Shown piece by piece: positions 7,092 through 26,383 of a stretch of 64,000 nt of DNA. The stretch comes from Armatimonadota bacterium (lineage in GTDB: Bacteria; Armatimonadota; HRBIN16). Made by a program: the position numbers and the translations under genes. The notes under the pieces are model-generated. The model was not told the origin of the DNA, made no database searches, and worked only from the letters and a program-made list of their open reading frames with translations. The stretch spans positions 62,001 to 126,000 of the forward strand of contig BPGU01000003.1 in assembly GCA_026003195.1 (NCBI GenBank), given 5' to 3'. Numbering within the stretch: position 1 is the stretch's first letter; each line of letters opens with the position of its first letter.

Positions 7092-8090
7092 TCAATACCT
7101 CGCCGCTTCGTGCGCCACCTGATAGGCGAACTCCACTTCCTCCAGCGGGGTGCCGGGCTGTACCATGTGTGAGGTGCAGAAGATGTAGCCACCGCCGGGC
7201 TTCAGCGTGCTCATTACCCGGCGAATCTCATCCGCCAGTTGCTCGCGGGGCAACCCCCGCCCCAACATGGTGCGCACGTCCAGCCCCCCGTAGATGCCCA
7301 GTCTGCCGTAGTAATCACGCTTCACCTGCGCGGGGTCCATCCCCGCCGATTCCTGCACCGGATGCATCACGCGAAAGCCCAGATCCGCCACACCGTCCAG
7401 CACCGGGGTGATGTAGCCGTCGCTGTGCAGGGAGAGCAGTCCTCCCCGGCGCTTCACCGCATCGCAGATAATCTTCTCGGCAGGGTAGATGACCTCCCAC
7501 CACGTTTGCGGGCGGAACATCAGCGCGTGGTTCATGCCCCAGTCGTCGGAGATATGAATGACGTCCGCGCCCAGTTCGAGGCAGTTCTCGGCATAGCGAG
7601 CAGACCATCGTGCGATGCGCTCATACAGTTGCCTGCACAACTCGGGGCGCAACGCCAGCTCCATCAGATTCTGCGCCTGCCCGATCACACCGTTTGCCGC
7701 CTCGAACACGCCCGGCGTCTGCACGAACACGGCTCGCCCGCGTCGCCCTTTGTGGTGCTCTATCTCGGCACGAATAGTGGTGTAGATTTCGGGGTCATCG
7801 GGATCGGTGAACTCCGCTTCCAGAGCCGCATCCAGCGTGTACACCCAGCCGTAGGCAGGTTCATACTCGGAATCAGGGCTGTTGGGCGGCGCCCCCTGTT
7901 TCAGAAACCCCCTGGCGGGGAATGCCTGCGTCATGTCCACATCCAGCGCATCACAGAAGGCTTCGAATGTGCCGTACTTTGCCAGAATATCGTCGATCAC
8001 GCCGGGTTGCCCGAATATCCATATATAAATCGGCACACGGTCCGGCTCCTGAAAGTGTAAAGTCGTCAAAACGCGCTCGCGTGCAAGCAT
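7092..8090 (-). CDS. Uroporphyrinogen decarboxylase-like methyltransferase
   Basis: 332 residues with the URO-D fold: ERVLTTLHFQEPDRVPIY at the N-terminus, ADVIHISDDWG in the middle, and LHSDGYITPVLDGVADLGF, GIYGGLDVRTML and GGYIFCTSH near the end. True HemE catalyses uroporphyrinogen III decarboxylation. This subgroup (MtaA/MtbA-like) instead moves methyl groups between corrinoid proteins and other acceptors, and the downstream position after a RACo gene supports that. The H-x-C zinc motif of MtaA-type enzymes appears here as H-S-D (LHSDGY), so the canonical thiol-activating zinc site is changed. It starts 9 bases after the RACo gene with GAGGTGAACCC before the ATG. The substrate is unknown, and no corrinoid protein gene is adjacent. 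Confidence 0.8.
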   Translation of the reverse strand: MLARERVLTTLHFQEPDRVPIYIWIFGQPGVIDDILAKYGTFEAFCDALDVDMTQAFPARGFLKQGAPPNSPDSEYEPAYGWVYTLDAALEAEFTDPDDPEIYTTIRAEIEHHKGRRGRAVFVQTPGVFEAANGVIGQAQNLMELALRPELCRQLYERIARWSARYAENCLELGADVIHISDDWGMNHALMFRPQTWWEVIYPAEKIICDAVKRRGGLLSLHSDGYITPVLDGVADLGFRVMHPVQESAGMDPAQVKRDYYGRLGIYGGLDVRTMLGRGLPREQLADEIRRVMSTLKPGGGYIFCTSHMVQPGTPLEEVEFAYQVAHEAARY

Positions 8091-8099
8091 GGGTTCACC

Positions 8100-9977
8100 T
8101 CAATCCAGGCTCTCCACAAAGCCGAGATGGTCCATATACGCCTCCTGATATTGCGGATTGCCGGTCATCACCACATGTTTCATCTGCTGTGCCAACCATT
8201 GGGCACGCTTGCGCTCGCGCACGGAACGCAGGGCGATTTTCGCACCTGCACCTGCCGCGTTGCCCACTGGCTCGATGCGCTCCAGCGGGATGGGAGGCAA
8301 CAAGCCGATGCGCTGTGCCGAGCGCAGGTTCACATACATACCGAACGCCCCCGCGACCAGCAGCCGCTGTACATCTCCCCACGTGATACCAGCCTCTTGC
8401 AGCAGCACCTCCATCACCGCGCGGATGGAACCCTTCGCCAGCTGCAGCTCGCGCACGTCCTTCTGGGTCAGTATCACTCCTTCGGGAGTACCCGACGCCT
8501 CTGGCGCGACCAGCTGAAACGCTTTCTGCTCGCACAACATGGTGAGATGGGAACTCCACCACACGCCGCCGTCTTCATTGCTCATACGCCCCGCCTCGTT
8601 CACCGCTCCAATGTCCAGCAGGCACGCGGCGGCATCAATCAGCCCCGAGCCGCAGATGCCTTTGGGCAGCCCACCACCGATGGTGGTCACATGCAGCCAG
8701 TGATTCTTGCCGTTGCTCTGCACGCTTATCTGCGAAACCGCCCCGGTCTCCGCGCGGATGCCCTGATAGATGCGCCCGCCTTCGAAAGCGGGACCTGCCG
8801 CGGCGGAAGTGCAGTAGTACTTGCTCCCATGCCGCAGTACCACCTCGCCGTTGGTGCCGATGTCCAGTGCCAGAACCGTCTCCCCATCAGGCTGATGCAG
8901 ATGCGTCAGTGCCACTGCCACTGTATCCGCTCCCACATAGCCCGCCACGCAGGGCAAAGTAGTTAACAGGGCGGATGGGTTCACCCGCAAGCCAATCTGC
9001 CGCGCCTCCACACTCAGCAGGTCGGTAAACACCGGCACATACGGCGCGACGGCGATGGAGTTCGTGTTCACCCCCAGCAGGAAGTGCAACATGGTGGTGT
9101 TGCCCACCGCCACCACTTCAAAGATGTCGTGTGGGTCTACCCTCGCCGCCTGGCACGCCTCGGCGATAATCTCGTTCATGCCGCGCACGACCGCGTGTTG
9201 CAGTGACCTCAAGCCCGACGGCTCGTGATAGACGAAGGTCAGGCGAGAGACCACGTCGTCGCCGTACTGTACCTGCGGATTGAGGCGGGCAGCATGAGAG
9301 AGCTCCTTCCCGCTTTGCAGGTCTATCAGATACCCCACCAGCGTGGTGGTGCCGATGTCGAAGGCGATGCCCAGCAAGGGTGTAGCCTCGTCGGGTTGCA
9401 CCGCCAGCAGGCGCGTTTCGTCGGGATGCTCCGGATCGTGGAACAGCACGACAAACGGGCGAAAATCCGTTTCTCGCAGCACTTGAGGCAGCTGCCGCGT
9501 GACGCTCAGCGGAACCTGTTCCACCTCTATCGGGATACCGTGTTGCTCGCGCAGAGCATCCAGCAGGCGACGCAGGTCGGAGCGCTCATCGGAAGTGCTC
9601 GGTGTGGGCAGCAGCAGAGGCAAACGGCGCACGGCGGGTTCCAGAGTGACGGCACGCTCCACGGCAGTGGTCAGCACCTGCGCGATGGCAGGACGGCTCT
9701 CCATTGGCACCTCCAGCTGCACATTGCCCATCAGCCGATGCCGGCAGGCGAGCCTCCAGCCCGCTGACAGGTCCTGGGCTGGGACGTGACGCAACTCCTC
9801 TTCAGTCGGTTCAGGAACCGCTCCGCCGATGAACCGTACCCTGCACTTTCCGCATACGCCAAACCCACCGCATGGTGTTTCGACAGCGACCCCTCCCTCC
9901 CACAGTGCACGCACCAGCGGCGTGCCTTCGGGCAGGTCTATGCTTATCTCATCAGGCAGAACAAACACTCGAGCCAT
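8100..9977 (-). CDS. RACo-type corrinoid activation protein: 2Fe-2S ferredoxin plus ASKHA domain (DUF4445)
   Basis: 625 residues from the ATG at 9977; the frame upstream of this has no similarity to the family. Residues 1-80 are a plant-type ferredoxin with C36-x5-C42-x2-C45 and C78 as likely [2Fe-2S] ligands. A linker and the large C-terminal ASKHA ATPase-like domain follow, with GIAFDIGTTTLVGYLIDL, VLALDIGTNGEV and LLVAGAFGMYVNL. RACo uses ATP to drive one-electron reduction of Co(II) corrinoid back to Co(I) in corrinoid methyltransferases. Its partner here is presumably the URO-D-like methyltransferase downstream. Length and order of domains are typical. The corrinoid protein must be encoded elsewhere or be supplied by another system. 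Confidence 0.87.
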   Translation of the reverse strand: MARVFVLPDEISIDLPEGTPLVRALWEGGVAVETPCGGFGVCGKCRVRFIGGAVPEPTEEELRHVPAQDLSAGWRLACRHRLMGNVQLEVPMESRPAIAQVLTTAVERAVTLEPAVRRLPLLLPTPSTSDERSDLRRLLDALREQHGIPIEVEQVPLSVTRQLPQVLRETDFRPFVVLFHDPEHPDETRLLAVQPDEATPLLGIAFDIGTTTLVGYLIDLQSGKELSHAARLNPQVQYGDDVVSRLTFVYHEPSGLRSLQHAVVRGMNEIIAEACQAARVDPHDIFEVVAVGNTTMLHFLLGVNTNSIAVAPYVPVFTDLLSVEARQIGLRVNPSALLTTLPCVAGYVGADTVAVALTHLHQPDGETVLALDIGTNGEVVLRHGSKYYCTSAAAGPAFEGGRIYQGIRAETGAVSQISVQSNGKNHWLHVTTIGGGLPKGICGSGLIDAAACLLDIGAVNEAGRMSNEDGGVWWSSHLTMLCEQKAFQLVAPEASGTPEGVILTQKDVRELQLAKGSIRAVMEVLLQEAGITWGDVQRLLVAGAFGMYVNLRSAQRIGLLPPIPLERIEPVGNAAGAGAKIALRSVRERKRAQWLAQQMKHVVMTGNPQYQEAYMDHLGFVESLD

Positions 9978-10074
9978 CGGCAAAGGATACCTTTCTGCGC
10001 TTGCTTTGTGGTAAAGTTCCGAAAGGCGAGAGGAGAATCCTCTTCGGTTGCTACCGCTTCCATTAAATAGAAAG

Positions 10075-10094
10075 AGGGGCACTGCCGTGCCCCT
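10075..10094 (-). terminator. Hairpin terminator after the dockerin gene
   Basis: Perfect 8-bp stem AGGGGCAC / GTGCCCCT with a TGCC loop, 22 bases past the stop at 10116. On the minus strand it is followed by CTTTCTATTT, a weak U-rich tail. Confidence 0.6.
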
Positions 10095-10115
10095 GAGAGA
10101 GTGAGAGGGGGAGGG

Positions 10116-11264
10116 CTATTCATCGCCGATGGCTCCGAAGTTGCGCACCAGTATCCCGAAGTCGAACAGACTGACCTCTTCATCGCCGTCCAGGTCGGCA
10201 TTGGGGTTCCAGCGGCTGTCTTCGGGGAAGCTTCCAAAAGCTGCGACCAGCATACCGAAGTCGAACAGAGACACTTCGTTGTCCCCATCGACGTCACCGT
10301 TGCGTAGAGAGGTTTCGATGTGCACCGTACCGTTCAGGTTGATCGAGGAAAGGGTGCGGCGCAACCAGTGCTCTCCTTTCAGCGATATATCGTAAACACC
10401 GCGCAAACGTGTGGTTACTTGCAGCCTGCCGTTGCTGTCTAGCGGAAGCAAGTGTTCCTCCAGCGGTTCGGTGCTACCCTGGGTGCGAATCTGCATCTGC
10501 ACCTGACGTCCCTGCAGTGAGCCTAAATAGTCTTCCAGAACCACTTGCGCCACCAGACGAGTCTGTGCGCTGCGCACATGGATGGTCGCTGTCTGCATGG
10601 GCAGATGTTCACCAAAGCGATGATAGCGCCGCACACCGTCTGTAGCGAGCAGCGAATTGGGCAACACGCCACTGGCATCTGGCACACTGGTGAGGGTAAC
10701 CGGTATCTGCGTACCCTCGGCAGTATCCTCTTTCACGCGCAGATAGATATGCCCTACATACCAGGGTTGCGTGAGGTCACTCCCACCGGGAGCCAATACC
10801 ACCCAAAGCGCTCCGGTTGGGGAGAAGACGGCGCTGCTGACATCTTCGGGATGTAGCAGGTTCGCACGCAATGGTGGGGTTTGCTCAGATGCTGCTGCTT
10901 TTGCATGCGCTCGTAGCATCTGTTGCGTTACGTCGGGATGCCAGAAAGCGTTTTCCCGGATGTCGCTAGGGTTGGGCGTGACTATCTCCACAGCAGGATG
11001 GTTCACCTGAAGTAGTGCGCCCAGCAGATACCAGCGGGTGACGTCACCAACAGGCTGAAACTGGAAACCGACAGTCAACCTGACCAGGTCACCCGGCTCC
11101 ACCTCCAGCGAAGAGACGGGTTGACTCGCTATGTGTGGCGTGGGTGACGAGTCCGCTATACTGGCAGGCGAAAGGTCGAAAAAGGCTCTGGGCTGGGCGT
11201 ATACTTGCTGATGCCAACCTGCCCACAGCGACAAAGTCACCATGAAAGCGAAAAGGCTTTTCAT
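10116..11264 (-). CDS. Secreted protein with C-terminal type I dockerin
   Basis: 382 residues. A signal peptide (about 1-23, ending VYAQ) is followed by a beta-rich region of ~270 residues that resembles a cohesin-like or generic Ig-like fold, for example DLVRLTVGFQFQPVGDVTRW. The last ~65 residues form a dockerin with two Ca-binding loops, DVDGDNEVSLFDFGMLV and DLDGDEEVSLFDFGILV. Dockerins bind cohesins; in Armatimonadota-like genomes they often occur singly on surface proteins without a cellulosome. The start overlaps the previous prepilin stop region with TGAGGAGG as ribosome site, so the two are one transcript. A hairpin terminator follows. The function of the middle domain is not recognised. 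Confidence 0.75.
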   Translation of the reverse strand: MKSLFAFMVTLSLWAGWHQQVYAQPRAFFDLSPASIADSSPTPHIASQPVSSLEVEPGDLVRLTVGFQFQPVGDVTRWYLLGALLQVNHPAVEIVTPNPSDIRENAFWHPDVTQQMLRAHAKAAASEQTPPLRANLLHPEDVSSAVFSPTGALWVVLAPGGSDLTQPWYVGHIYLRVKEDTAEGTQIPVTLTSVPDASGVLPNSLLATDGVRRYHRFGEHLPMQTATIHVRSAQTRLVAQVVLEDYLGSLQGRQVQMQIRTQGSTEPLEEHLLPLDSNGRLQVTTRLRGVYDISLKGEHWLRRTLSSINLNGTVHIETSLRNGDVDGDNEVSLFDFGMLVAAFGSFPEDSRWNPNADLDGDEEVSLFDFGILVRNFGAIGDE

Positions 11265-11277
11265 CAGATAAACCTCC

Positions 11278-11982
11278 TCAGTCGTCCCTGCCTGGGTGGT
11301 GCAGGTCTATCCTGCCATCAGGTGTCCAGGTTTGCTCGAAACGGAGCCATCGGGCATGTCCGTCCACAAAGGTGTAGTTAGCTCCTCCCAGATGCCAGTT
11401 CATCGCCAGCTCATCCTCTGGCAAAAAGAATGTGCCGCAATCGTTCGGCCATCGCCACGCAGCAGAGTGATAATGGTCGATGGTGGCGTTTGGTTTTGCC
11501 TCCGAAATGTAGATTGTACGGGCAGGAGCCTTAACCGAAGCGAGTGTATTGTAGCCAGTACAGTGTGTAGTTAGCTCATCTACACCCAGCTGAGGCAGCA
11601 TCCAGAAGTTCGTGATGTAGCTGGTCTTGCGCACCGTGCGGAAGCCTGGTAGAGGGGTTGTCCAGTTTGTGCTGGGGTCGGAAGGGCAGCGGTACAGTAG
11701 TTTGTTTTTGGTATACGGCTCCAGCGTGTGCAACCATACCCAAGGAGCATTGGTGCCGGTATGCGAGTCGAGCGGAAAGCTCTCGTCGTAGTCCTGGGCA
11801 TACATGTTCACTGCCAATCCCATCTGACGCATGTTGCTCAGGCAAGAGGCTTGACGTGCTTTTTCCCGCGCCTGAGCAAAAACGGGGAACAGTATCGCTG
11901 CCAGTATAGCAATAATCGCTATAACTACCAGCAGCTCTATCAGCGTGAACGCCCATACTTGTTGAACAGAAAGACGTTTCAT
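11278..11982 (-). CDS. Prepilin-type protein with H-x9-DG motif (DUF1559-like)
   Basis: 234 residues from the ATG at 11982 (GAAGGAGGAATTGCCG upstream). The N-terminus has a short leader, then [20 protein letters not shown] and [20 protein letters not shown], the standard class III prepilin cleavage and methylation region. The C-terminal part has [17 protein letters not shown], the H-x9-DG motif typical of DUF1559 pseudopilins that are abundant in Planctomycetes and Armatimonadota. It would be processed by PilD-type peptidase (present at 52729-53754). It lies among secreted dockerin and PEP-CTERM genes rather than in the pilus cluster. A pilus subunit or a secretion-related pseudopilin are both possible. 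Confidence 0.85.
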
Positions 11983-12004
11983 CGGCAATTCCTCCTTCTT
12001 GGCG

Positions 12005-12023
12005 GGGGGGCGCAAAGCCCCCC
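12005..12023. other. GC-rich stem-loop before the prepilin gene
   Basis: GGGGGGC-gcaaa-GCCCCCC, a perfect 7-bp stem, lies about 10 bases upstream of the ribosome site of the gene that starts at 11982. There is no U-tract on either strand. It may end or process the upstream transcript. Confidence 0.55.
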
Positions 12024-12075
12024 AACACCATAGTGATATCACATAGTCTGGCGGATTGCTAGCCAGCGCCGCATA

Positions 12076-12099
12076 CAGGTCAGGGAAACAACTGACCTG
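12076..12099. other. Stem-loop after the PEP-CTERM gene
   Basis: CAGGTCAG and CTGACCTG form a perfect 8-bp stem around ggaaacaa, 32 bases beyond the stop at 12131 on the minus strand. No U-tract is seen; it may act as a terminator or stabiliser. Confidence 0.5.
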
Positions 12100-12130
12100 C
12101 CGCGTGGTGTGATGAACACGTGTGCAACTT

Positions 12131-12751
12131 TCATCTCTTGCGCCTGCGCAGCAGGAGCGTGCTAACGCCTGCCCCTAAGATGGCGATAGTGGACGGTTCG
12201 GGAACAGGCTGGAACTTGATGGTGTACACCAGCGAGTTGCCCAGCGGCGTACCATCATGGGCAATGCCATTGGTCAACTGGAACTGGAAAAGGGACGGAG
12301 CAAACTGCGAGGTGGCAAAGATGACGTGCTTGTGCACCGACTCCGGGTCGTTTGGGTCATAGGTGAGCGTCAGCGCACCTGACGTGCCGATGCCAAACAC
12401 CGGGTCTACCTCACCATCCACCACGCCGAACAAGCCTGGCGTGATGAACAGCTGCTGCAGGGTGACCTGCCTCAGCATTGGCTCGTGCTCATGCTGGGGA
12501 TGATGCCCTTCCTCGTGCTCATGTGCGAAGTCCAGCCCGATGTCCACCACGAAGATGCCCAGCCCTGTTGGCTCCATCTGTACCGTTAGCCAGTAGGGTT
12601 CCTGCGTGATTTCATCGGGTGCGAGGATGGCAAGGATACCATTCTGGTAGCCCAGATGCAGGTCGCCCTCGTGTCCATGCTCTTGTGCGCTCAGCGGCAG
12701 CAGCACCAGACAGAACAGCGCCACTGGCGCGAACCACTTCCAGAATTTCAT
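12131..12751 (-). CDS. His-rich PEP-CTERM surface protein
   Basis: 206 residues from the ATG at 12751 (AAAAGGAGGGAG upstream). A signal peptide (ending PLSAQ) is followed by a His-rich segment (HGHEGD; later [15 protein letters not shown], likely metal binding). A central beta domain contains ITPGL and HKHVIFATS. The C-terminal sorting signal [13 protein letters not shown] runs into a hydrophobic helix and the basic tail LLLRRRKR. Exosortase would process this tail. The central domain is homologous to that of the dockerin protein at 12785-13723, which shares GYxNGI, VDxGxDF, xISPGL-like and HxHxxFA motifs. That pattern resembles the 'choice-of-anchor' domains linked to zinc or manganese uptake. 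A zinc role is inferred from the His-rich loop and neighbours. Confidence 0.75.
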
Positions 12752-12784
12752 TGTGTATCTCCCTCCTTTTCGCATAGAGTTTTT

Positions 12785-13723
12785 TTAGCGCACGTCCTGC
12801 CCGCTCTGTCCATAGTTGACCAGCACGGCAACCACATCGTCCAGATTCACTCGTCCGTCACCGGTCAGGTCACCAGAAGGATGGTTCCTACCGAAGTGTT
12901 GCACCACCTGCGTAAGGTCTGCTTCATCAATGCGGTCGTCTTCGTTCGTATCCCCCAGTATGGGGAAAGACCAGTCCAGCCGCTGTGAGCCAGACAGGTT
13001 ACGAGATACTTTCACCGAGAGATGTTTCTGCAGTTTCGCAGCCACTTCCACGCTGCCTGTAGTGTTGAAACCCACCAGATACGGGTAGATCGCCCATGGG
13101 TTCACAGGCTGTTCAAACCTGCCAGCTTCGTTGCCGCCACGCAGCACACGTACCTGCAGTATCAGGTCGTATAGACTGCCCACATACCAGTTAGAGGGCT
13201 GCACGTTACCATACAGCTGACTGGGGCTACCCGCCACCATGTAGATACGGTAGACGAAAGGCATATCCGCGAGGGAACGCCCCTGGTAGTCCATACCATT
13301 CACTGCCTTCAGGTCAAACACATATACTCCTGGCAAAGATGCAGCGAAGACGAAATGGTGATGCGGTGTGCCCCCGTACGGCAGGTCGAAGTAGTTAGGC
13401 GTTGCCCCACTGCTAAACACCGTGCCTACCCCCGATTTGTTGCCTACCAGCCCTGGCGAAATCCATACCTGCTGCACGCGACAGCGCTGGAGCATAAAAC
13501 CTATCCAGCCGTCTGGCACGAAAAAGTCCATACCGACGTCCACCAGGTAGGTGTTCGCTTGTGGGCTGACCATGCGCCGAACAGGGTGTACCTGCGGCTG
13601 CATGACGGTTACTATACCGTTTTCATAGCCGTAGAGCAGGTCCAGCTCGTGCTGAGCAGCAGCAGGAATGCTAAAGAGGCACATTGCCAGTGCCAGTACT
13701 AGGCACGCGAGACGGATATTCAT
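12785..13723 (-). CDS. Surface protein with choice-of-anchor-like domain and type I dockerin
   Basis: 312 residues from the ATG at 13723 (GGAGGTTGCAT upstream). A signal peptide (ending AAAQ) precedes a domain sharing the motif order of the PEP-CTERM protein downstream: YGYENGIVTV, VDVGMDFFV, VWISPGLVG, PHHHFVFAASLPGVYVF. The pattern H-x-H then F-x-PG-x-Y resembles actinobacterial surface-anchored repeats associated with metal ABC transporters. The C-terminal ~60 residues are a dockerin with loops DTNEDDRIDEADLTQVV and DLTGDGRVNLDDVVAVL. The finding that one domain type is coupled to a dockerin here and to a PEP-CTERM signal next door suggests that only the anchor has been exchanged. The ligand is not known. 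Confidence 0.72.
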   Translation of the reverse strand: MNIRLACLVLALAMCLFSIPAAAQHELDLLYGYENGIVTVMQPQVHPVRRMVSPQANTYLVDVGMDFFVPDGWIGFMLQRCRVQQVWISPGLVGNKSGVGTVFSSGATPNYFDLPYGGTPHHHFVFAASLPGVYVFDLKAVNGMDYQGRSLADMPFVYRIYMVAGSPSQLYGNVQPSNWYVGSLYDLILQVRVLRGGNEAGRFEQPVNPWAIYPYLVGFNTTGSVEVAAKLQKHLSVKVSRNLSGSQRLDWSFPILGDTNEDDRIDEADLTQVVQHFGRNHPSGDLTGDGRVNLDDVVAVLVNYGQSGQDVR

Positions 13724-13741
13724 ATGCAACCTCCTTCGGAT

Positions 13742-13770
13742 AACCCTGCCCCCATTGCGGGGGCAGGGTT
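13742..13770. other. Strong GC stem-loop between two surface-protein genes
   Basis: AACCCTGCCCCC and GGGGGCAGGGTT form a perfect 12-bp stem with loop attgc. It sits between the stop at 13780 and the ribosome site of the gene starting at 13723. On the plus strand it is followed by TTGTCT; on the minus strand there is no U-tract. Confidence 0.6.
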
Positions 13771-13779
13771 TTGTCTCCC

Positions 13780-14619
13780 TCACCGTTTACGACGATGGAG
13801 CCACATGCCCAGCAGCCCCATGCCTAAAACCGCCATCGTGGACGGCTCTGGAACAGGATAGAAGTCAAAGTGGAAAACGCCCGAATCGCGCAGCGGACGA
13901 TAACCTGCCGTGTTGTTCAGGTCGATGAGCTGGAAGCTGGCAGAATATATCTGCACCGGTGCGCCCATGGCGACCGAGAAGACAGGCGTGAAGGCGAAAT
14001 TATCCCCCGCGCCGATTTCATACACATTGCCGACGCTGGTGAGAATAGGTGTACCGTCTGGTAAGGTGATGCGCAGACCGGGTGTGATGTCTACCAGACG
14101 CAGACCGATACGTGCTTCTCCCAGCATTCCCGTCCAGCGTCCGCCCGAGGAGTTGTACAGTCGCTGGATAGCCGGATCGCCAGAACCTGCCAGCACCGTC
14201 GTCGGCTGCATCAACAGGTTGCTATACTCCTCACGCGCCGGGTCACGGATGATACCCGACTGGTAGTAACCTGCGAACGCACCGCTGCCAGGATACAGGT
14301 AAATATATTCCTGCCCTGTGGGGCGCTGATACAGTTCCGGTAGACGGTTATTGGCGTTGGTGTTATTCACCGCCGGGTTTGCAGGAGCACCGCTGTAAGA
14401 CCACACGCCAATGGGATGATAGTGTTCAGTGCCAGGCGTGTAGTGAGCGAGCAGCAGGGTGAGCCTGCCAAAGTTTGGTTCCGGCAAGCCTGCGTAGGTG
14501 CCGCTAGGGATAGTGGTGCGGCCGTCTACGCCAATGAAATACACATCGTGCTGCGCTACAGCAGCGCGAGCGAACAAAGCCACCGCGATAGCGATGAGCC
14601 AGTGTGCGAATCGCTTCAT
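13780..14619 (-). CDS. PEP-CTERM protein resembling the all3515 Zur-repressed family
   Basis: 279 residues. The ATG at 14619 has AAGGAGGAGAAGTGAAA upstream, better spaced than the in-frame GTG at 14625. A signal peptide (ending AVAQ) is followed by VYFIGVDGRTTIPSGTYAGL and then FGRLTLLLAHY and EHYHPIGVWSYSG. I recognise this pattern as like the cyanobacterial all3515 family, whose founding member is repressed by the zinc regulator Zur. The C-terminus is VPEPSTMAVLGMGLLGMWLH plus RRKR. It likely sits on the cell surface or outer membrane and may bind metal through HYH. I did not find a convincing Zur box upstream (only a TGAAAATG half-site at 14642-14649), so the zinc link rests on family resemblance. 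Confidence 0.7.
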   Translation of the reverse strand: MKRFAHWLIAIAVALFARAAVAQHDVYFIGVDGRTTIPSGTYAGLPEPNFGRLTLLLAHYTPGTEHYHPIGVWSYSGAPANPAVNNTNANNRLPELYQRPTGQEYIYLYPGSGAFAGYYQSGIIRDPAREEYSNLLMQPTTVLAGSGDPAIQRLYNSSGGRWTGMLGEARIGLRLVDITPGLRITLPDGTPILTSVGNVYEIGAGDNFAFTPVFSVAMGAPVQIYSASFQLIDLNNTAGYRPLRDSGVFHFDFYPVPEPSTMAVLGMGLLGMWLHRRKR

Positions 14620-14752
14620 TTTCACTTCTCCTCCTTATTGCCTGAAAATGTTGTGTTGAAAGCGACAATCGCTATCTGGATTGCAGAATGGCTACCTTAT
14701 GGCAGCGCAAACTGGTGTCTGCCACCATCCAGAAGAGGAAAGAGGTTGCAAG

Positions 14753-15097
14753 TCAGGCAACAGGAGGAGCGCGGACAGGAGGAGTAGAGGTCCGGTCAGC
14801 AGGGTATATGCACGATGTCCAAACGACCAGCGATACACTCTCCAGCACTGGCAACAGTTCGCTGGAAGAGAACGTCACCAACGCAGGAGAATGATTCAGA
14901 TAGCAGATGTAGCATTCGTGGTCGTCGGCATGTGCCGATTGCCATTGTGCCCCTGCGGACGAGACAACACGAGCTTCGTTGTGCTGGTGAAACACAGGCA
15001 CAGCCACCTGCATCACCAGCCAGAGCGCTGTCAACAAACAGAATAGTATGTTGCTCCGCGTCCGCATAGGCATCGTTACCGTAAGTTTCACAGTCAT
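14753..15097 (-). CDS. Small secreted or membrane protein with HQH and CxxC motifs (DUF2946-like)
   Basis: 114 residues. A hydrophobic helix (FCLLTALWLVMQVAV) is followed by PVFHQHNEAR and, about 25 residues later, HADDHECYICYLNHSP; this spacing of HxH and C-x-I-C recalls DUF2946-type proteins often found near copper or zinc genes. The ATG at 15097 has GGTGG 8 bases upstream, and an in-frame ATG at 15073 is an alternative. It opens the minus-strand run of surface proteins and is separated by 133 bases from the all3515-like gene. The short length makes this a less secure gene call, but the metal-ligand pattern is unlikely to be chance. Confidence 0.55.
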   Translation of the reverse strand: MTVKLTVTMPMRTRSNILFCLLTALWLVMQVAVPVFHQHNEARVVSSAGAQWQSAHADDHECYICYLNHSPALVTFSSSELLPVLESVSLVVWTSCIYPADRTSTPPVRAPPVA

Positions 15098-15218
15098 TAA
15101 TCCACCACAGGCAACGCGAGGCTGTCAATACTTTCAGCGCACAGAGGTGCTACTTTTTCGATATTTCGTGTTTCATCATCACAGTTTTGTGGTGTTACGT
15201 ACTGTGTGGTAAGGCTTC

Positions 15219-15248
15219 TTGTTCCACACCGTGCGTTTCTGGTATACT
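15219..15248 (+). promoter_or_regulatory. Promoter of the TlpA-like gene
   Basis: TTGTTC (15219-15224), 18 bases, TATACT (15243-15248); the ATG at 15282 lies 33 bases further on with GAGGAGG between. It sits in the divergent 184-base gap with the DUF2946-like gene. Confidence 0.55.
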
Positions 15249-15281
15249 GCGGCAAAGAGTACTCGCGAGGAGGCGAAGAGG

Positions 15282-16415
15282 ATGAAACGAACCATACTGG
15301 TCGTCTGCGCGGTGTGCACGCTGGCAGCAGGTGCGTTTGCCCAGAGCATGACCCCCAAACAGGTGATGCAGCAGATTCGGCAGGCGTACGACAAAGTGCA
15401 GAGCCTGCGAGCCACCGTGCAGATGAAGAGGGGCGGGGAGACCTTCGTGGCGTCGGTGCAATTCGTGCGCCCGAAGCAGTTTCTGGTGCAGGTGACACAG
15501 AACGGAAAGCTGGTGCAGTCGTTCATCAGTGATGGCACTACCTTTACCACCTACGACGCCCAGAAGAAAACCTACATGCAACTGCCTGTGTCGGAGGACA
15601 AGCCCCTGGCTGGCGGACACCTGAACTTTGCGGGCTTCGCCGCGATAGCGATGGAACCCCAATTCGGGCAGATTCTGGAAGGGTTCGCGGAGAGAAGCTT
15701 TAACAAGGCGCAGGCGAAGGGCACACAAAAGGTGGGAGCCATCCCGTGTCGCGTGGTGGAGCTGACCGGTGAGGGGGGTACCATGACCCTCTCCCTGGGA
15801 CAGAAGGACGGACTGGTGTATAAAATGGTCTATAAAATGTCCGACGGCGACACCTATGAGGAAGTGGTCACCGCTTTGCAGCTCAACACCCCTGTCCAGA
15901 AGACAGCTTTTGCTTTCAAACCGCCGGCAGACGCGAAGAAGGTAGAGCCCGGGCAGCAGGCGGAGCGCGAAGATACCACATCGCTCAAGGGGCAGGAGGC
16001 TCCCGAATTCACCCTGACCGACATGGAGGGCAACGAGGTCTCGCTCAGCAGCCTGCGGGGCAAAGTGGTGTTCCTGGACTTCTGGGCGACGTGGTGTCCG
16101 CCTTGCCGACAGTCCCTCCCACATACGCAGTCGCTCAGCCAGCATGAGAAGGCGAAATCGGGTGACTTGATGGTTCTGGCGGTGAATGCACGCGAGGAGC
16201 TGGACACGGTGAAGAAGTTCATGCAGGACAACAAGTACAGCTTCCGCGTGCTGATGGACAAAGAGGGCACGGTGCTCAATGCTTACAAGGTGCAGGGCAT
16301 CCCCACCTTTGTGCTGATTGACCGCGAGGGGAAGGTCGCCTGGGTACAGGTCGGTTTCGGACCGGGCACCGAGAAGCAAATGGAAGAGGCGGTACAACAG
16401 GCATTGGGGCAGTAG
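15282..16415 (+). CDS. Secreted LolA-like / TlpA thioredoxin fusion
   Basis: 377 residues from the ATG at 15282. A signal peptide (ending GAFAQ) is followed by a LolA/DUF2092-like beta domain (about residues 25-215: QIRQAYDKVQSLRATVQMKR, then DGTTFTTYDAQKKTYMQLP). The second half is a TlpA/ResA-like thioredoxin: APEFTLTDMEGNEVSLSSLR, VFLDFWATWCPPCRQSLPH with the redox pair near residues 272-275, and the cis-proline region QGIPTFVLIDREG. The LolA-like part may bind lipids or a lipoprotein. The C-terminal part would reduce disulfides or cytochrome c apoproteins in the periplasm. Such fusions are common in Armatimonadota and Planctomycetes. It is monocistronic with its own promoter and a following hairpin. 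Confidence 0.85.
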   Translation: MKRTILVVCAVCTLAAGAFAQSMTPKQVMQQIRQAYDKVQSLRATVQMKRGGETFVASVQFVRPKQFLVQVTQNGKLVQSFISDGTTFTTYDAQKKTYMQLPVSEDKPLAGGHLNFAGFAAIAMEPQFGQILEGFAERSFNKAQAKGTQKVGAIPCRVVELTGEGGTMTLSLGQKDGLVYKMVYKMSDGDTYEEVVTALQLNTPVQKTAFAFKPPADAKKVEPGQQAEREDTTSLKGQEAPEFTLTDMEGNEVSLSSLRGKVVFLDFWATWCPPCRQSLPHTQSLSQHEKAKSGDLMVLAVNAREELDTVKKFMQDNKYSFRVLMDKEGTVLNAYKVQGIPTFVLIDREGKVAWVQVGFGPGTEKQMEEAVQQALGQ

Positions 16416-16457
16416 CATTCTGAAGGATGATACTGCAGGTTCGACCTAACCCCCTGA

Positions 16458-16482
16458 CCCCCTTCCCCCCAAGGGAAGGGGG
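16458..16482 (+). terminator. GC hairpin after the TlpA-like gene, part of an intergenic repeat
   Basis: CCCCCTTCCC and GGGAAGGGGG form a 10-bp stem with loop cccaa. The surrounding sequence (CCTAACCCCCTGACCCCC on the left, CGCCCCTCTCCGCCCAGGAG on the right) is of a type of C-rich intergenic repeat common in many environmental bacteria. The U-tract is lacking. The rest of the 265-base gap holds only the RHS promoter. Confidence 0.5.
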
Positions 16483-16568
16483 AACCACAACCGCCCCTCT
16501 CCGCCCAGGAGAGGAGACGGAGGGGAGGTGGAATCTTTAAAAATTTCCCCCTACCCCCGCCCAAATGC

Positions 16569-16597
16569 TTGACAATCACGCAAGGATGTGATATTGT
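16569..16597 (+). promoter_or_regulatory. Promoter of the RHS locus
   Basis: TTGACA (16569-16574), 17 bases, TATTGT (16592-16597). The -35 box is perfect. The signal-peptide start at 16681 follows with AAAGGAGGGGGC. Confidence 0.6.
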
Positions 16598-16680
16598 GTC
16601 ACCAGTAGCGCAGCTCCCGCAGTGTGGCGAAAATCTCCAGAGGGCTTTTCATCACAACACAAAGGAGGGGGCTTACCAAA

Positions 16681-18162
16681 ATGTTACGACGCTTTCCGTC
16701 TCTGCGCACACTGGCTACCGTGTGCATCCTGAGCCTCACCGTGCAGGTAGCCGCTCCGCTCTTCGCCTCCTCCGACATGAGTGGGGGTAGAAAGGACAGT
16801 TTCCTCCCTTTCCACTGACAAAAATCCCTCTTCCAGTAAACTGCTCGCCTGGACAAACGGGCTATGGAACCTCATCCTCTCCCATTTGCAATCGGGTGCA
16901 CCACCTCTGCAACCTGCTCCAGGTTCCCCACAGCCCTGGCAACCCGCTTACCCCGTCTACAGCGGAGTAGCGAGGTGACGGCGGTGACCGACCCGATGGG
17001 CAGGCAGACGCAGTTCACGTATGATGCCACAGGCAACCTGACGCAGGTGCGTGACCCGCTGGGCAACACCACCCGTTACAGTGACCAGTGCTGTCGGGTG
17101 ACGCAGCGCACGGACGCATTGGGCAGAGTGACCACCTACAGTTACGACGGTTGGGGCAGGCGGGTGCAGCAGGTCTCTCCTGCGGGCACGACGACGGCGA
17201 CGTATGATGGGGCAGGCAGGCTGGTTCAGGTAGTGGATGCAGCCACCAACACGACCGAGACGTATGTGTGGAACGCGGACGGCACGTTGGCGAGTTTTCC
17301 GGGTCCGGGTTACACGCGGTTACTGGAGTATGACGAGGAGGGGAGGCTCATCCGCATTCGCCGGGATCACGGTGGTGGCAACGTGCGGTTGGCATACGAA
17401 TACGCCTACGGTTTTGACGGCGGCAGGCGGTGGCGCAAGGATTACCTGAACGGGGTGTGGACACGGTATCCCTGTGGTGTAGCGTGCGGAGCGGGTGATC
17501 TGGTAGAGCAGCAGAAGCCGCTGGAGGGTGGCAGCTGGACGACGAGTGCCCTGTATTTGCAGGGTATCTCTCTGGTACGTCGAAACAGTGAATGGCATCA
17601 CTCTGACCCGTTGGGCACGGCGGGGGTGATCACGAACGGGAGTGCACAGGTGGTGAGCAACAACCTGTACGATGTATTCGGGGTGTTGCGGTATCAGCAG
17701 GGCAGTGCGCAGACGCCGTGGAGGGATTCGATGTTTAGGGCTGCAGATGAAGGCTTCTATCAACTTCGTAGTGGAGTTTATGCAGTTGAAATATCCAAAT
17801 ACAAACGCGGTTGGAGAAAACTCTGCCGTGTGGTTAAAGACTTCATTGTAGACTGCGGCTTAGAGGTCTATGAGAAGTGCAAAGAGATCAAGGACAAGTG
17901 TGACCTCTTCAAGCCAGTTTTTGATTGCACCCAATGTGCTGCCCTAACGATCGAAGCAGGAAGGCAGTGTAATCACTGGCTGGACACAGATGTCGGTTTT
18001 GAGTGGTGTCTCAATCATCCCAAATGCGCAGGCAATAGTCTTTGCTGTGCACAACATTGTGTCAACGATTGGCTAGCCCAGTACGGAGGACAGACATGGA
18101 AGGACTGTATCGATCGATGCGTGGATGTGGTCAAAAAGTCTTGGGAGGTAGCAGCGCAATGA
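16681..18162 (+). pseudogene. Decayed RHS/YD-repeat protein with Cys-rich C-terminal tip
   Basis: A good start at 16681 (AAAGGAGGGGGC before the ATG) encodes a signal peptide (RTLATVCILSLTVQVAAPLF) but stops at 16818. A second frame (about 16781-16978) carries on with ERTVSSLSTDKNPSSSKLLA, and a third segment (open from 16864, coding by similarity from about 16976) gives the YD repeats: VTDPMGRQTQFTYDATGN, ALGRVTTYSYDGWGR. The normal long N-terminal part of RHS proteins is missing, so this is a frameshifted, internally deleted gene. The core ends with the RHS-type motif NLYDVFGVLRYQQG at about residue 270 of the last segment. A divergent C-terminal tip follows with about 14 cysteines (DCTQCAALTIEAGRQC, CCAQHC), unlike the core in base composition. 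Tips of such proteins are usually toxins; this one is not recognised. The remaining open frame (16864-18162, 432 codons) could still be translated. Confidence 0.7.
17660..17730 (+). repeat. RHS core end, copy 1
   Basis: DNA coding NNLYDVFGVLRYQQGSAQTP, just before the Cys-rich tip. A second, diverged copy is at 18793-18857. Confidence 0.8.
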
Positions 18163-19979: not shown

Positions 19980-20735
19980 CTAGCCGCAATTCACCAGATG
20001 TGCCAGGTAGCCTGCTCCGAAGCCGTTATCGATATTGACCACCGCCACCCCGGGCGCACAGGAGTTGAGCATGGTCAACAGCGGCGCGAGACCTCCAAAG
20101 TGCGCTCCGTAGCCCACACTGGTCGGCACGGCGATCACGGGACGGCTGACCAGCCCGCCTACCACGCTGGGCAACGCGCCTTCCATCCCTGCCACCACCA
20201 CCAGCACGTGCGCCCCAAACAGCTTTTCCGATTGCGACAGCAGCCGGTGCAATCCGGCAACGCCCACATCGTACAACCGCTCCACGCGACTGCCCATCTC
20301 CGATGCGGTTACCGCCGCCTCTTCCGCCACAGGAAGGTCGGATGTGCCCGCCGCCACCACCAGCACGTAGCGGTCTTGCGGTACCGCGCTCTCCGGCTCG
20401 CTTTCGCCCAGCGCCAGGATGCGCGCCACCTCATGATAGCGGACGCGGGGAAAACGCTCTTTCACGATCGCCGCCAGTTCGGGAGTAGCACGAGTAGCCA
20501 GCACCTTGCGATGGCGGTTGCTCAGCCGTTCTAAAATCGCCAGCACCTGCTCCGGCGTTTTTCCCTGACAGAAGACCACCTCGGGGAAACCGCTGCGCAG
20601 GGCGCGGTGTGTGTCGATACGAGCGAACTCCAGATTCTCATAGGGCAGAACGCGCATCCGCTGCAACGCTTCCTCTACCGAAAGCGTGCCCGCACGCACC
20701 GCCTGCAGAATCCCTTCCAGTGCGCTAACGTCCAT
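19980..20735 (-). CDS. larB: Nickel-pincer cofactor biosynthesis protein LarB
   Basis: 251 residues from the ATG at 20735; a TTG five codons earlier is possible. The C-terminal half resembles the PurE family: VLVVAAGTSDLPVAEEA, LYDVGVAGLHRLL, VVVAGMEGALPSVVGGLV and VAVPTSVGYGAHFGG. LarB carboxylates and hydrolyses nicotinic acid adenine dinucleotide to pyridinium-3,5-bis-carboxylic acid mononucleotide, the first step towards the NPN cofactor of lactate racemase and related enzymes. It overlaps the larE stop by 11 bases. LarC (nickel insertion) and LarA are not in this window, so the pathway must continue elsewhere or be incomplete. Confidence 0.93.
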   Translation of the reverse strand: MDVSALEGILQAVRAGTLSVEEALQRMRVLPYENLEFARIDTHRALRSGFPEVVFCQGKTPEQVLAILERLSNRHRKVLATRATPELAAIVKERFPRVRYHEVARILALGESEPESAVPQDRYVLVVAAGTSDLPVAEEAAVTASEMGSRVERLYDVGVAGLHRLLSQSEKLFGAHVLVVVAGMEGALPSVVGGLVSRPVIAVPTSVGYGAHFGGLAPLLTMLNSCAPGVAVVNIDNGFGAGYLAHLVNCG

Positions 20736-21579
20736 CTGCCACCACTCCAACCGCGCCGGCGGGAATAACGCCCTGCTTGCGTAGCGGCTCGTTCAGGCTG
20801 CCCGTGCGGTAGCCCGCGAGGTCTAACGTCACATAGAGATAACCAATCTCCTTGAATCGGGTGACGATGATGTCTGCCAGATCCACCACGCGGGCGAGGT
20901 CTGCCTTCTCCACCTCGATACGGGCGATGATATCGTGATGGCGCACGCGGAACTGTCGGAAACCCAGCTCGCGCAAGCACCGCTCCGCCGCGTCCACCTG
21001 CGCCAGCAGTTCGGGGGTGATGGTTGTGCCATACGGGAAGCGCGAGGAGAGACACGCAAACGATGGCTTATCCCAGTTGGGCAAGCCCGCCGCCTGCGCC
21101 GCCCGACGGATATCCTCTTTGGTGAATCCCGCTTCGCGCAGAGGACTGCGCACGCCCTTCTCCGCCGCCGCACGCATTCCGGGACGGTAGTCGCCTTCGT
21201 CGCCCGCGTGCGAGCCGTCTGCTACCCAGCGGATACCGTGCTCATCCGCTATCCGCCGTATCACCCCGAACAGTTCGGTTTTGCAGTGGTAGCAACGGTC
21301 GGGGTTATTCACTCGGAAGTGCGGGTTGCTCAGCTCGTGTGTGCGTACGACTACGTAGCGCCAGCCGCGCTCCTCCGCCAATCGGCGTGCCTCTTCGATC
21401 TCGCCGGCAGGAAAAGCCTCTGAATCTCCGATGACCGCCAGCGCGTTCTCGCCCAGCACCTCGTGCGCCGCGTGCATCAGGTAGGTGCTGTCCACACCGC
21501 CCGAATATCCTACAGCCACACTGCCCATCTCGCGCAGGATGGCGAATAAGCGTTGCTCTTTCTCCTGCCAATCCAGCAT
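20725..21579 (-). CDS. larE: ATP-dependent sulfur transferase LarE
   Basis: 284 residues from the ATG at 21579 (GGAGGGGATAGAG upstream); the longer open frame is in the dacA overlap and is not LarE-like. The PP-loop VAVGYSGGVDSTYLMHA (residues 21-37) binds ATP. Cysteines at C96 and C99 (DRCYHCKTELF) and C176 (KPSFACLSSR) are present. In sacrificial LarE a single cysteine, corresponding to C176, donates its sulfur. In the three-cysteine class, known from Thermotoga, the trio holds a 4Fe-4S cluster and the enzyme can turn over. This protein therefore looks like the cluster type. It lies between dacA (3 bases upstream) and larB. Confidence 0.93.
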   Translation of the reverse strand: MLDWQEKEQRLFAILREMGSVAVGYSGGVDSTYLMHAAHEVLGENALAVIGDSEAFPAGEIEEARRLAEERGWRYVVVRTHELSNPHFRVNNPDRCYHCKTELFGVIRRIADEHGIRWVADGSHAGDEGDYRPGMRAAAEKGVRSPLREAGFTKEDIRRAAQAAGLPNWDKPSFACLSSRFPYGTTITPELLAQVDAAERCLRELGFRQFRVRHHDIIARIEVEKADLARVVDLADIIVTRFKEIGYLYVTLDLAGYRTGSLNEPLRKQGVIPAGAVGVVADGR

Positions 21580-24099: not shown

Positions 24100-24594
24100 T
24101 TATTGCGAGTTCCATGATAGCAGATTGCTTATAAGTCTATCTATTACACCAGCAAGCACCCATACAGGCTCTCCTTCCACAAGTACTCCTACCTCATGAT
24201 TGACAACCATACCACCCCACGATAAGTTCGCCGAACCTATGACAGCTTTTTTTCTGTCTGCTATAACTACCTTAGCATGAAGTTCTCCTCCCCCTACATC
24301 GTCGAACGCGTAAATCTCCACGTGCGGAAAGCGTGCTTTCATGTCCAGCAGATTCTTCCGGACAACTGGCGAGAACGTCCATGGCTTGTTCAGAATAAAG
24401 ATTACTCTAACGCCACGTGCTGCAGCCTGCTGAGCCTTCAATAACAGGTCTACAGCCGATTCTGCAATAAGGTATGCAATAATCGTCACCTCATCCTGTG
24501 CCGATAAGATGATCTCTTCAACTGCAGGCTGTACTGCGCGAAATTCGTGGCCGGTGAAGTACCTGCCAGTGACCAGCAGCTGGTACGAACTCAT
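24100..24594 (-). CDS. drmC: DISARM protein DrmC, phospholipase D-like
   Basis: 164 residues from the ATG at 24594, which overlaps the drmB stop in an ATGA. A single PLD (HKD) motif is seen as H106-x-K108-x4-D113 in ELHAKVVIADRKKAVIGSAN. PLD proteins need two HKD motifs, so a dimer is likely. In known DISARM systems DrmC is a nuclease-like PLD protein. It is the last gene of the operon. It shares the lower GC content of the drm block. The product is probably active in phage DNA processing, although in some DISARM tests drmC was dispensable. It is not a phospholipase by context. Confidence 0.85.
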   Translation of the reverse strand: MSSYQLLVTGRYFTGHEFRAVQPAVEEIILSAQDEVTIIAYLIAESAVDLLLKAQQAAARGVRVIFILNKPWTFSPVVRKNLLDMKARFPHVEIYAFDDVGGGELHAKVVIADRKKAVIGSANLSWGGMVVNHEVGVLVEGEPVWVLAGVIDRLISNLLSWNSQ

Positions 24595-26372
24595 GGCGCG
24601 TTCTCCAGCAAAACCTCCCGGTCCAGCCACAGGTTTCTGTGTTCGCATGAGGTTTCCGATATGAGCGCACAGCCATAGCAGGCGGGCCCACTATACTTTC
24701 CTAGATAGAAATGATTTTCTGCACAGAGCGGGTCATTCGAGCATGCTTCCGCCAGTTCAATTGCTTTTTGTAAGATACTATCAAAGTACGGAACAAGAGA
24801 AATCAGCCCACCTGAGGAGCCCTCGCTTCCCGGCTGTGTGGCGTACAGCACAATTCCCCCTTTTGCGCTGTCCGATGTGCAATCTATACGGGTGTAAACG
24901 CGCTCACGTATCGCGGCAGAAGAGTAGCCGGCGTCGACAGAAATCGCTCTGATGAGAAAATGGGACAGCGTATGCCACCAGACAAACACAGGGTGCAATT
25001 CAACTTTTTTCTTGTCTCTGAAGAGGTGGTCAGGATAGTCGGTATGTCCGTTCTGCCACGCCTGCTTCCATTTCAGATTCAGAGGGGATTCGCCGCGGCA
25101 GTCAACTGACTCACTGATCAGCGAGATGAAAATACCTTCCCCTAAGAACTCTGTTCCGGGATACCACCTGTTATTGTCTTTATCCGTGAACGATACATCT
25201 ACAACATCAGGAGGCTGAGATGTACCTCCCACCTCCCTTCTGTAACCTGTCTGCACTGTGACCGATCTCAGCCTCAGCAGGGGAGCTATCCTGAACTGAC
25301 ATTTCCTTCTCGGCCCCCACACACATTTTATCTTTGATAGATCCACCTCAAAAAGAACAACTCCAGACCGATCACGCTTGGGAGGGTATCCGTTAACAGA
25401 TGCATTGAGAAGTTCGTCAAACTCTTCCAGTATTAGGTCAGAATAGTTCGATGATCGCAGCTGGCTGATATCCTGTAGTGCTTGCTGTATATCCTGCCAA
25501 TCGTAGCTATTGATTTCTGCACACACAGAACGTTCCAGCAATCCCTCTTTCGCGGTCTTCTCCAGCTCGCTTATAAAGTCAGACTTGCTAGCAAAAGAAT
25601 TTTTGCATGCAATAACCGTCCTTATAGTTCGAGATTCAAGCAAACGGTGAAGTCGTGTAGCACGAGGCGGGATGGTGAAAAGGGTACGCAGCTCAGGTAT
25701 GCGCAGGTTAGCAGCCTGCCTTTGTATCATAAAAGCTTTTTCAGAGCACCCTGGACGCTCGGCACTGTTTCCGATACTCTCCCTTTCGGGAAAGCGACCG
25801 GAGCATTTCCATGCCTGCCTGTAAGCCCAGCCCAAGTTCACCTTTCTGCTGCACTCAGGACACTCAATCTGCACTTGGCTGAGGCTGCTACCCGCTTGGC
25901 ACCAATTATAATACTTTGATTGTCTGGAGCACGAGTTTCCGCCATGTACAACAGCAAACCAGTCCACATCATCCAGATGCCCCTTCGGACAGGCAAGCAC
26001 AAAACGTATCGCCTCTATATGACCTCCTTCGGTATGGCAAACAGGACAGGTTTGGCCGAGGTATAACACATAGCACCCCCGCGGGTGGCATACCGTGCAC
26101 AGGTTCCAAGATGGAAAACTCTTTGTTTTGTAGATATCGCTCGACTCAGGTTTCCCCAGCTCAGCGTTAGAAGGTAGCCGGAAGACCCTAGCTCCAGCGA
26201 GCAACCCCTGAGAAACCCTCTGGTCCGAAATCTCGAAATCCTCCGGCAGGTGTTCGCCGTAGAACAGACCTTTATCCGGGAGAGGGATCAGACGGGGCCC
26301 GTGAACCCCTTCAATGATAGCACCAGGACCATAGGTATAAACGAACTGTGAACGTCTGATGTGCTGGGTCAT
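24591..26372 (-). CDS. drmB: DISARM protein DrmB (DUF1998)
   Basis: 593 residues from the ATG at 26372 (GAGGAGGAGAAG upstream); a TTG at 26387 is less likely. The N-terminal RRSQFVYTYGPGAIIEG and the C-terminal PACYGCALISETSC with NLWLDRE are typical of DUF1998. Many Cys pairs suggest zinc sites (CTVCHPRGC, CPVCHTEGG, CPECSRK). DrmB forms a complex with the helicase DrmA in the DISARM system that loads on free-end or unmethylated phage DNA. It starts 11 bases after the drmA stop and its own stop overlaps the drmC start. Length is in the usual range (~600). Confidence 0.9.
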   Translation of the reverse strand: MTQHIRRSQFVYTYGPGAIIEGVHGPRLIPLPDKGLFYGEHLPEDFEISDQRVSQGLLAGARVFRLPSNAELGKPESSDIYKTKSFPSWNLCTVCHPRGCYVLYLGQTCPVCHTEGGHIEAIRFVLACPKGHLDDVDWFAVVHGGNSCSRQSKYYNWCQAGSSLSQVQIECPECSRKVNLGWAYRQAWKCSGRFPERESIGNSAERPGCSEKAFMIQRQAANLRIPELRTLFTIPPRATRLHRLLESRTIRTVIACKNSFASKSDFISELEKTAKEGLLERSVCAEINSYDWQDIQQALQDISQLRSSNYSDLILEEFDELLNASVNGYPPKRDRSGVVLFEVDLSKIKCVWGPRRKCQFRIAPLLRLRSVTVQTGYRREVGGTSQPPDVVDVSFTDKDNNRWYPGTEFLGEGIFISLISESVDCRGESPLNLKWKQAWQNGHTDYPDHLFRDKKKVELHPVFVWWHTLSHFLIRAISVDAGYSSAAIRERVYTRIDCTSDSAKGGIVLYATQPGSEGSSGGLISLVPYFDSILQKAIELAEACSNDPLCAENHFYLGKYSGPACYGCALISETSCEHRNLWLDREVLLENAP

Positions 26373-26383
26373 TCTTCTCCTCC

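Follow-up and report, generated by a model that had tools for sequence, protein, structure and literature searches.

A conserved gene run pairing ZepA with ZepA-like surface proteins in an Armatimonadota bacterium, a candidate system for metal capture

ZepA (All3515) of Anabaena is an experimentally studied zinc exoprotein, which binds zinc, is repressed by Zur, and is needed for unimpaired growth in the presence of chelators (PMC10957091). The zinc motif proposed for the protein is H-X2-9-H-F/Y-H, homologs from other lineages act similarly in E. coli, and those that were tested are zinc-specific (PMC10957091). The return of ZepA-bound metal into the cell is stated there as unknown, with a receptor route proposed for Anabaena, and an ancient pairing of Zur with zepA is also suggested (PMC10957091). 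The lineages covered are the Cyanobacteria, Proteobacteria, Nitrospirota, and the Planctomycetes-Verrucomicrobia-Chlamydiae (PVC) group, and the main text includes neither a dockerin nor an Armatimonad (PMC10957091). A second group of described proteins comes from C. diphtheriae, in which several mutually similar surface proteins are regulated by zinc and Zur; some are encoded together with a metal ATP-binding cassette (ABC) transporter of the anchored-repeat type and others away from it (PMC6711530). Here a run of six genes that includes a zepA homolog is described from a 64,000-nucleotide stretch (the window) of contig BPGU01000003.1 of an Armatimonadota bacterium. Its sequence features suggest that the run (15097 to 10116, minus strand) probably encodes a cell-surface system for capturing a transition metal, and the presence of ZepA makes zinc the most likely metal.

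Four adjacent minus-strand open reading frames of 114, 281, 332, and 214 amino acids occupy 12131-15097 of the window, where the original prediction had placed a group of secreted HxH-type proteins together with a small HQH/CxxC protein. All four genes were present as described, but the boundaries were too narrow, since they omitted two further genes in the same direction, a pilin and a dockerin-type protein. The cluster had identical gene order in five of the ten genomes of the genus and for that reason is far beyond what chance would produce. Of the four other clusters in the genus, three (L023, L025, and L026) continued with homologs of the pilin and the dockerin-type protein, and in the fourth (L024) the contig stops before their positions. 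The features of the run are given below in window coordinates; Pdom is the domain shared by the 332- and 214-amino acid proteins.

15098-15218, no strand: intergenic region between the start of the run and the divergently oriented gene for a thioredoxin-fold protein, with no Zur-like palindrome found
14753-15097, minus: small secreted or membrane protein with HxH and CxxC motifs and a C-terminal RAPPxA, first gene of the run, DUF2946-like below threshold
14981-14989, minus: HQH motif of the small protein, from the sequence and genus relatives
14903-14914, minus: CYIC motif of the small protein, from the sequence and genus relatives
13780-14625, minus: zepA, all3515-family PEP-CTERM exoprotein, from NF040463 and PEP-CTERM matches
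14416-14445, minus: H-X6-H-Y-H of ZepA, from the sequence, with H61, H68, and H70 invariant in 11 of 11
12785-13783, minus: Pdom protein 1, with a ZepA-C-like domain, a further linker region, and two dockerin-like EF-hand repeats; likely ATG at 13723
13355-13363, minus: HHH, the invariant HxH of Pdom protein 1, from the sequence and 46 of 46 Pdom sequences
12131-12775, minus: Pdom protein 2, with a His-rich ZepA-C-like domain and PEP-CTERM; likely start at 12751
12326-12334, minus: HKH, the invariant HxH of Pdom protein 2, with H148 and H150 invariant in 15 of 15 sequences of alignment A1
11278-12042, minus: DUF1559 type IV pilin-like cassette protein, from Pfam and NCBIfam matches; likely start at 11982
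11467-11478, minus: DHYH motif of the cassette pilin, from the sequence
10116-11264, minus: dockerin-type secreted protein, which follows the pilin in the genus (Dockerin_1, 24.8 versus a cutoff of 22.9)

The 281-amino acid protein belongs to the all3515/ZepA family, as its resemblance had suggested. It matched NF040463 over the whole model (positions 1-227 of 227) with 251.8 bits against a cutoff of 75 (E 6.8e-75), a putative signal peptide was visible by eye at its N-terminus, and a PEP-CTERM signal (TIGR02595, 26.3 versus 16) was found at its C-terminus. Its H-X6-H-Y-H fits the published zinc motif, and the three histidines were found in all 11 relatives. The protein thus shares with Anabaena ZepA the full-length family match, the PEP-CTERM signal, and the H-X-H-Y-H motif. 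However, the window zepA has Pdom genes and a pilin gene as constant neighbors in a fixed run, and in its genus neither a Zur partner nor a Zur box was detected.

The 332- and 214-amino acid proteins are paralogs over Pdom (blastp E approximately 1e-12; profile-profile probability 99.7) and end in different tails, as predicted. The shorter protein carries a PEP-CTERM tail (28.1 versus 16), and the C-terminus of the longer one is a pair of dockerin-like EF-hand repeats that scored below threshold (Pfam, 19.5 versus 22.9; NCBIfam, 20 versus 29). The HxH of Pdom was kept in all 46 sequences. A profile search, which had been proposed for the three secreted proteins, was successful for the ZepA family and the PEP-CTERM tail, but gave no family above the cutoff for Pdom, and single-sequence searches with both window Pdom proteins matched only their tails. 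When the Pdom profile, from which G226_x was excluded as too divergent, was compared with the C-terminal half of ZepA after removal of PEP-CTERM, the hhalign score was 42.1; the best of 60 column shuffles reached 25.4, the reversed profile 11.9, and the N-terminal half of ZepA 11.5. On the evidence of these profiles, Pdom is a distant homolog of the ZepA C-terminal half.

The AlphaFold model of the domain in the 214-amino acid protein was a confident beta-sandwich (predicted local distance difference test score, pLDDT, 90.2). The ZepA model was fair (pLDDT 82.2), and its last six strands had the same order along the Pdom profile alignment. No solved structure matched Pdom or ZepA by sequence at E 10, and searches with the two models by Foldseek and VIA found only common sandwiches, with a best Z of 7.1 for Pdom. 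Structure 6kjk was found with both models (ranks 5 and 1), which is consistent with a single fold but is no proof of one.

The C. diphtheriae surface proteins presumably carry the TIGR03769/choice-of-anchor M domain, and a likeness to metal-linked proteins of actinobacteria had been predicted for the window proteins. Among the Pdom proteins of relatives, 2 of 15 touched TIGR03769 (best score 19.5 versus 30.9) and 3 of 15 touched choice-of-anchor M (16.3 versus 55), with matches that spanned the HxH...PGxYxF core in the relatives displayed. Neither of the window Pdom proteins matched either model. Because the scores were far below the cutoffs, Pdom was not assigned to these families, and what is left of the predicted likeness is a weak domain similarity in relatives. 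The resemblance to the actinobacterial proteins lies in these weak profile matches and in the occurrence of paralogs with varied anchors, whereas the window cluster has no ABC transporter and has PEP-CTERM or EF-hand tails in place of sortase signals.

Of the 28 genomes with Pdom, 25 supplied the 27 loci that were read, leaving out the neighborhoods in G091, G094, and G202 and of a second match in G099 (C88); tails were read by eye, as script patterns missed several. A Pdom protein with a dockerin-like tail was followed by one with a PEP-CTERM tail in 17 of the 27 loci, always in that order, and the exceptions included G226, G227, and G248, in which a longer Pdom protein had a different tail. 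Judged from this conservation of order, the two-tail pairing is old and stable, and the exchange of anchors that the original prediction saw between the adjacent paralogs is not a local, recent swap. Cohesin (PF00963) was absent from the matches in the genome of the window and was matched in only 1 of the 14 genomes searched (G248), and therefore the role of the dockerin-like tail as an anchor is only putative. Cassettes of G226 (L049, 9789-10556) and G248 (L111, 7819-8589) also encode one more PEP-CTERM family, whose members begin with a His-rich segment and have an HxH (HDH, HKH) in the middle; it is perhaps another divergent Pdom.

The small 114-amino acid protein headed the run in all five genus clusters, with H37, H39, C62, and C65 invariant in all five, and similar proteins were encoded upstream of Pdom in several loci outside the genus. 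It matched DUF2946 with 16.0 bits versus a cutoff of 23.7, and four of the five genus members had such a weak match. The cassette pilin scored above the cutoffs for SBP_bac_10 (39.5 versus 23.3) and N_methyl (22.4 versus 21.2) in Pfam and for H-X9-DG (24.9 versus 19) in NCBIfam. It is thus like other DUF1559 pilins, from which it differs in a [DE]HxH motif and in its fixed position beside Pdom. A DUF1559 pilin with [DE]HxH adjoined Pdom in 21 of the 27 loci; five of the six misses were at contig ends with fewer than 500 bases on the pilin side (L024, L098, L101, L104, and L114), and only L110 was a true miss. The genome of the window (G000) has a striking expansion of DUF1559 pilin-like proteins, with 75 matches, of which 70 were fetched and 69 were readable (L179 gave none). 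Only one of the 69, the cassette pilin, contained DHxH. In a quick tree, the cassette pilins fell on one side of a branch whose support was only 36, while 22 rows, comprising 20 cassette pilins and 2 others, were grouped with a support of 99. The window pilin scored 149 bits with its best paralog in the same genome, which puts that paralog on a par with the most distant cassette pilin (141 bits).

Across the phylum, zepA was found in 11 of 291 genomes and Pdom in 28, and all 11 genomes with zepA also had Pdom (Fisher p 8e-13, not corrected for relatedness). The two co-occurred even in G195 and G200, where they are encoded apart. A SaoD/DsrE gene followed Pdom in some loci (201.3 bits versus 152 in L023; others by eye). 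No description of the cassette was found in the open-licence PubMed Central literature.

If the run is a system for metal capture, the six genes would form one operon. ZepA and the Pdom protein with the PEP-CTERM tail would be exported and trimmed by exosortase, a match to which was found in each of the 14 genomes searched. The surface layer would retain the EF-hand Pdom protein and the pilin. The HxH sites of ZepA and Pdom would bind metal, most likely zinc, outside the cell. The different tails may place the two Pdom proteins in different locations, with the EF-hand tail perhaps held by contacts other than with cohesin, to which the genome gave no match, and the pilin may display or organize the Pdom proteins. 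Captured metal could then be passed to the periplasm and from there to one of the ZnuABC-type importers. ZnuA was found in all ten genus genomes, and three ZnuA genes were found in the genome of the window; none of these three loci was near the cassette. The fixed gene run offers concrete candidates for the return of ZepA-bound metal, namely partners resembling half of ZepA, different tails, and an HxH pilin, and it connects ZepA to a wider family of HxH surface domains. In addition, cassettes retained in genomes without any Fur match bear on the idea of an ancient Zur-zepA pair (PMC10957091).

The receptor route proposed for Anabaena had no clear candidate among the TonB-dependent receptors of the window genome or G248. 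The TonB-dependent receptor found across the genus has neighbors that are YfiR-like, sensor-kinase, and response-regulator genes (by eye) and occurs in genomes without zepA as well. The receptor in G248, approximately 15 kb from the cassette, has neighbors of the same kinds (by eye), and such neighborhoods were the reason for dropping these receptors as partners of the cassette. A second receptor in the window genome (C17, L211) is on a contig of 10 kb that appears to be a contaminant (genome contamination 4.82).

Several results weigh against a zinc capture system. The fold matches of Pdom were middling, half of the ten genus genomes had neither zepA nor Pdom, and the SaoD/DsrE gene in some cassettes is not explained by a pure zinc role. 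No dedicated Zur and no Zur-like site were found in the genus, and Pdom cassettes were found in G210, G213, and G082, which had no Fur match. The genes for ABC importers have other locations in the genome than the cassette, and no zinc-linked TonB-dependent receptor was recognized when the receptor loci of the window genome and G248 were read by eye.

A more specific form of the zinc reading, which is tentative and rather doubtful, is that one phylum has a pilin-based type of extracellular zinc scavenging. The HxH pilin would display or organize the ZepA-C-like pair, ZepA would be an add-on that arose by fusion of an N-terminal zinc domain with this same surface domain, Pdom would be a distant relative of choice-of-anchor M, and Zur would be optional.

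It is unlikely that copper or manganese is the metal that the cassette handles, with a copper-related Pdom sandwich and His/Cys small protein and a ZepA that was taken on in part of the lineages. The VIA matches of the Pdom model were mostly multicopper oxidase domains, with one plastocyanin (Z 6.4 to 7.1), but a Z below 8 may reflect merely a common arrangement, and the HxH of Pdom differs from copper sites of type 1, for which a cysteine is necessary. Seventeen of the 28 genomes with Pdom had no zepA, but Pdom was present in every genome that did have zepA, and the ZepA homologs tested elsewhere are zinc-specific (PMC10957091). DUF2946 proteins are among the genes listed as downregulated in a Zur study of Caulobacter, one of them beside czr efflux genes (PMC4176598), a point in favor of this reading.

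Repression by Zur in response to zinc starvation, which was part of the original prediction, was not borne out for this organism. The genome of the window had one Fur-family match, PerR-like and beside a peroxiredoxin gene. Exactly one Fur-family gene was found in nine of the ten genus genomes, whether or not zepA was present, and none was matched in the tenth (G007, 77% complete). Thirty upstream regions, some with start coordinates that were rough guesses, were scanned for palindromes and for seven consensus forms of Zur, Fur, and PerR sites. In the window, the scan ahead of the small gene and of zepA gave neither a near match to these forms nor a palindrome in which 7 or 8 of the 8 pairs agreed, so the proposed search for a Zur box also came back negative. 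The only clear site in the 30 regions was in G248, where another Fur-family gene, the second in that genome (62.9 bits versus 23.1), is transcribed divergently from the adjoining small gene, pilin, and Pdom. Between this gene and the cassette, at L111:9841, is the perfect Fur/Zur palindrome TGATAATAATTATCA, the sole exact site in 856,284 bases of fetched loci. The palindrome presumably also fits Fur, and therefore indicates control by the Fur family in G248 rather than by Zur alone. On these sequence comparisons, at least one relative probably has control of the Fur type, whereas Zur control is not supported in the genus of the window, where it appears to be absent or replaced. A truly Zur-repressed cluster in the window would require a divergent Zur box or the single Fur protein acting as Zur; the G248 site with its adjacent Fur gene and the name of the NF040463 family, which includes Zur repression although this is not part of the model, are in its favor, but it is improbable given the position of the single Fur gene beside a peroxiredoxin gene, its presence without zepA, and the lack of a site. 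On the far side of the Fur-family gene in G248 (L111, 10515-13964) are a second DUF2946-like gene (18.1 versus 23.7), a MacB-type ABC transporter, and a peptidyl-prolyl isomerase.

It is also unlikely that the run is an ordinary cluster for a surface layer or pilus, made up of PEP-CTERM and dockerin-like proteins, with structural or incidental histidines and with zepA there by chance in one genus: the 75 DUF1559 matches and several PEP-CTERM tails in the genome do make such genes common neighbors, but HxH was found in every Pdom sequence, zepA and Pdom occurred together in all zepA genomes even when encoded apart, and the [DE]HxH motif was missing from the other readable pilins of the genome.

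Upstream of the cassette, at 15219-16415, is the divergent gene for the thioredoxin-fold protein, which also matches DUF2092; in relatives it is not kept directly beside the cassette. A scan of 9500-17000 with Rfam gave nothing that reached the gathering score. Elsewhere in the window, a DISARM-type defense cluster (24100-31957) encodes DrmC, DrmB, DrmA, and the methyltransferase DrmMII, with a match to a nicking-endonuclease model between DrmA and DrmMII; this stretch is low in G+C (0.50-0.53 versus approximately 0.60). LarB, of nickel pincer cofactor biosynthesis, is encoded at 19980-20750 (300.9 bits versus 175). At 7092-10082, a RACo/AcsV-like corrinoid activator adjoins a protein that by eye resembles the uroporphyrinogen-decarboxylase-type methyltransferases.

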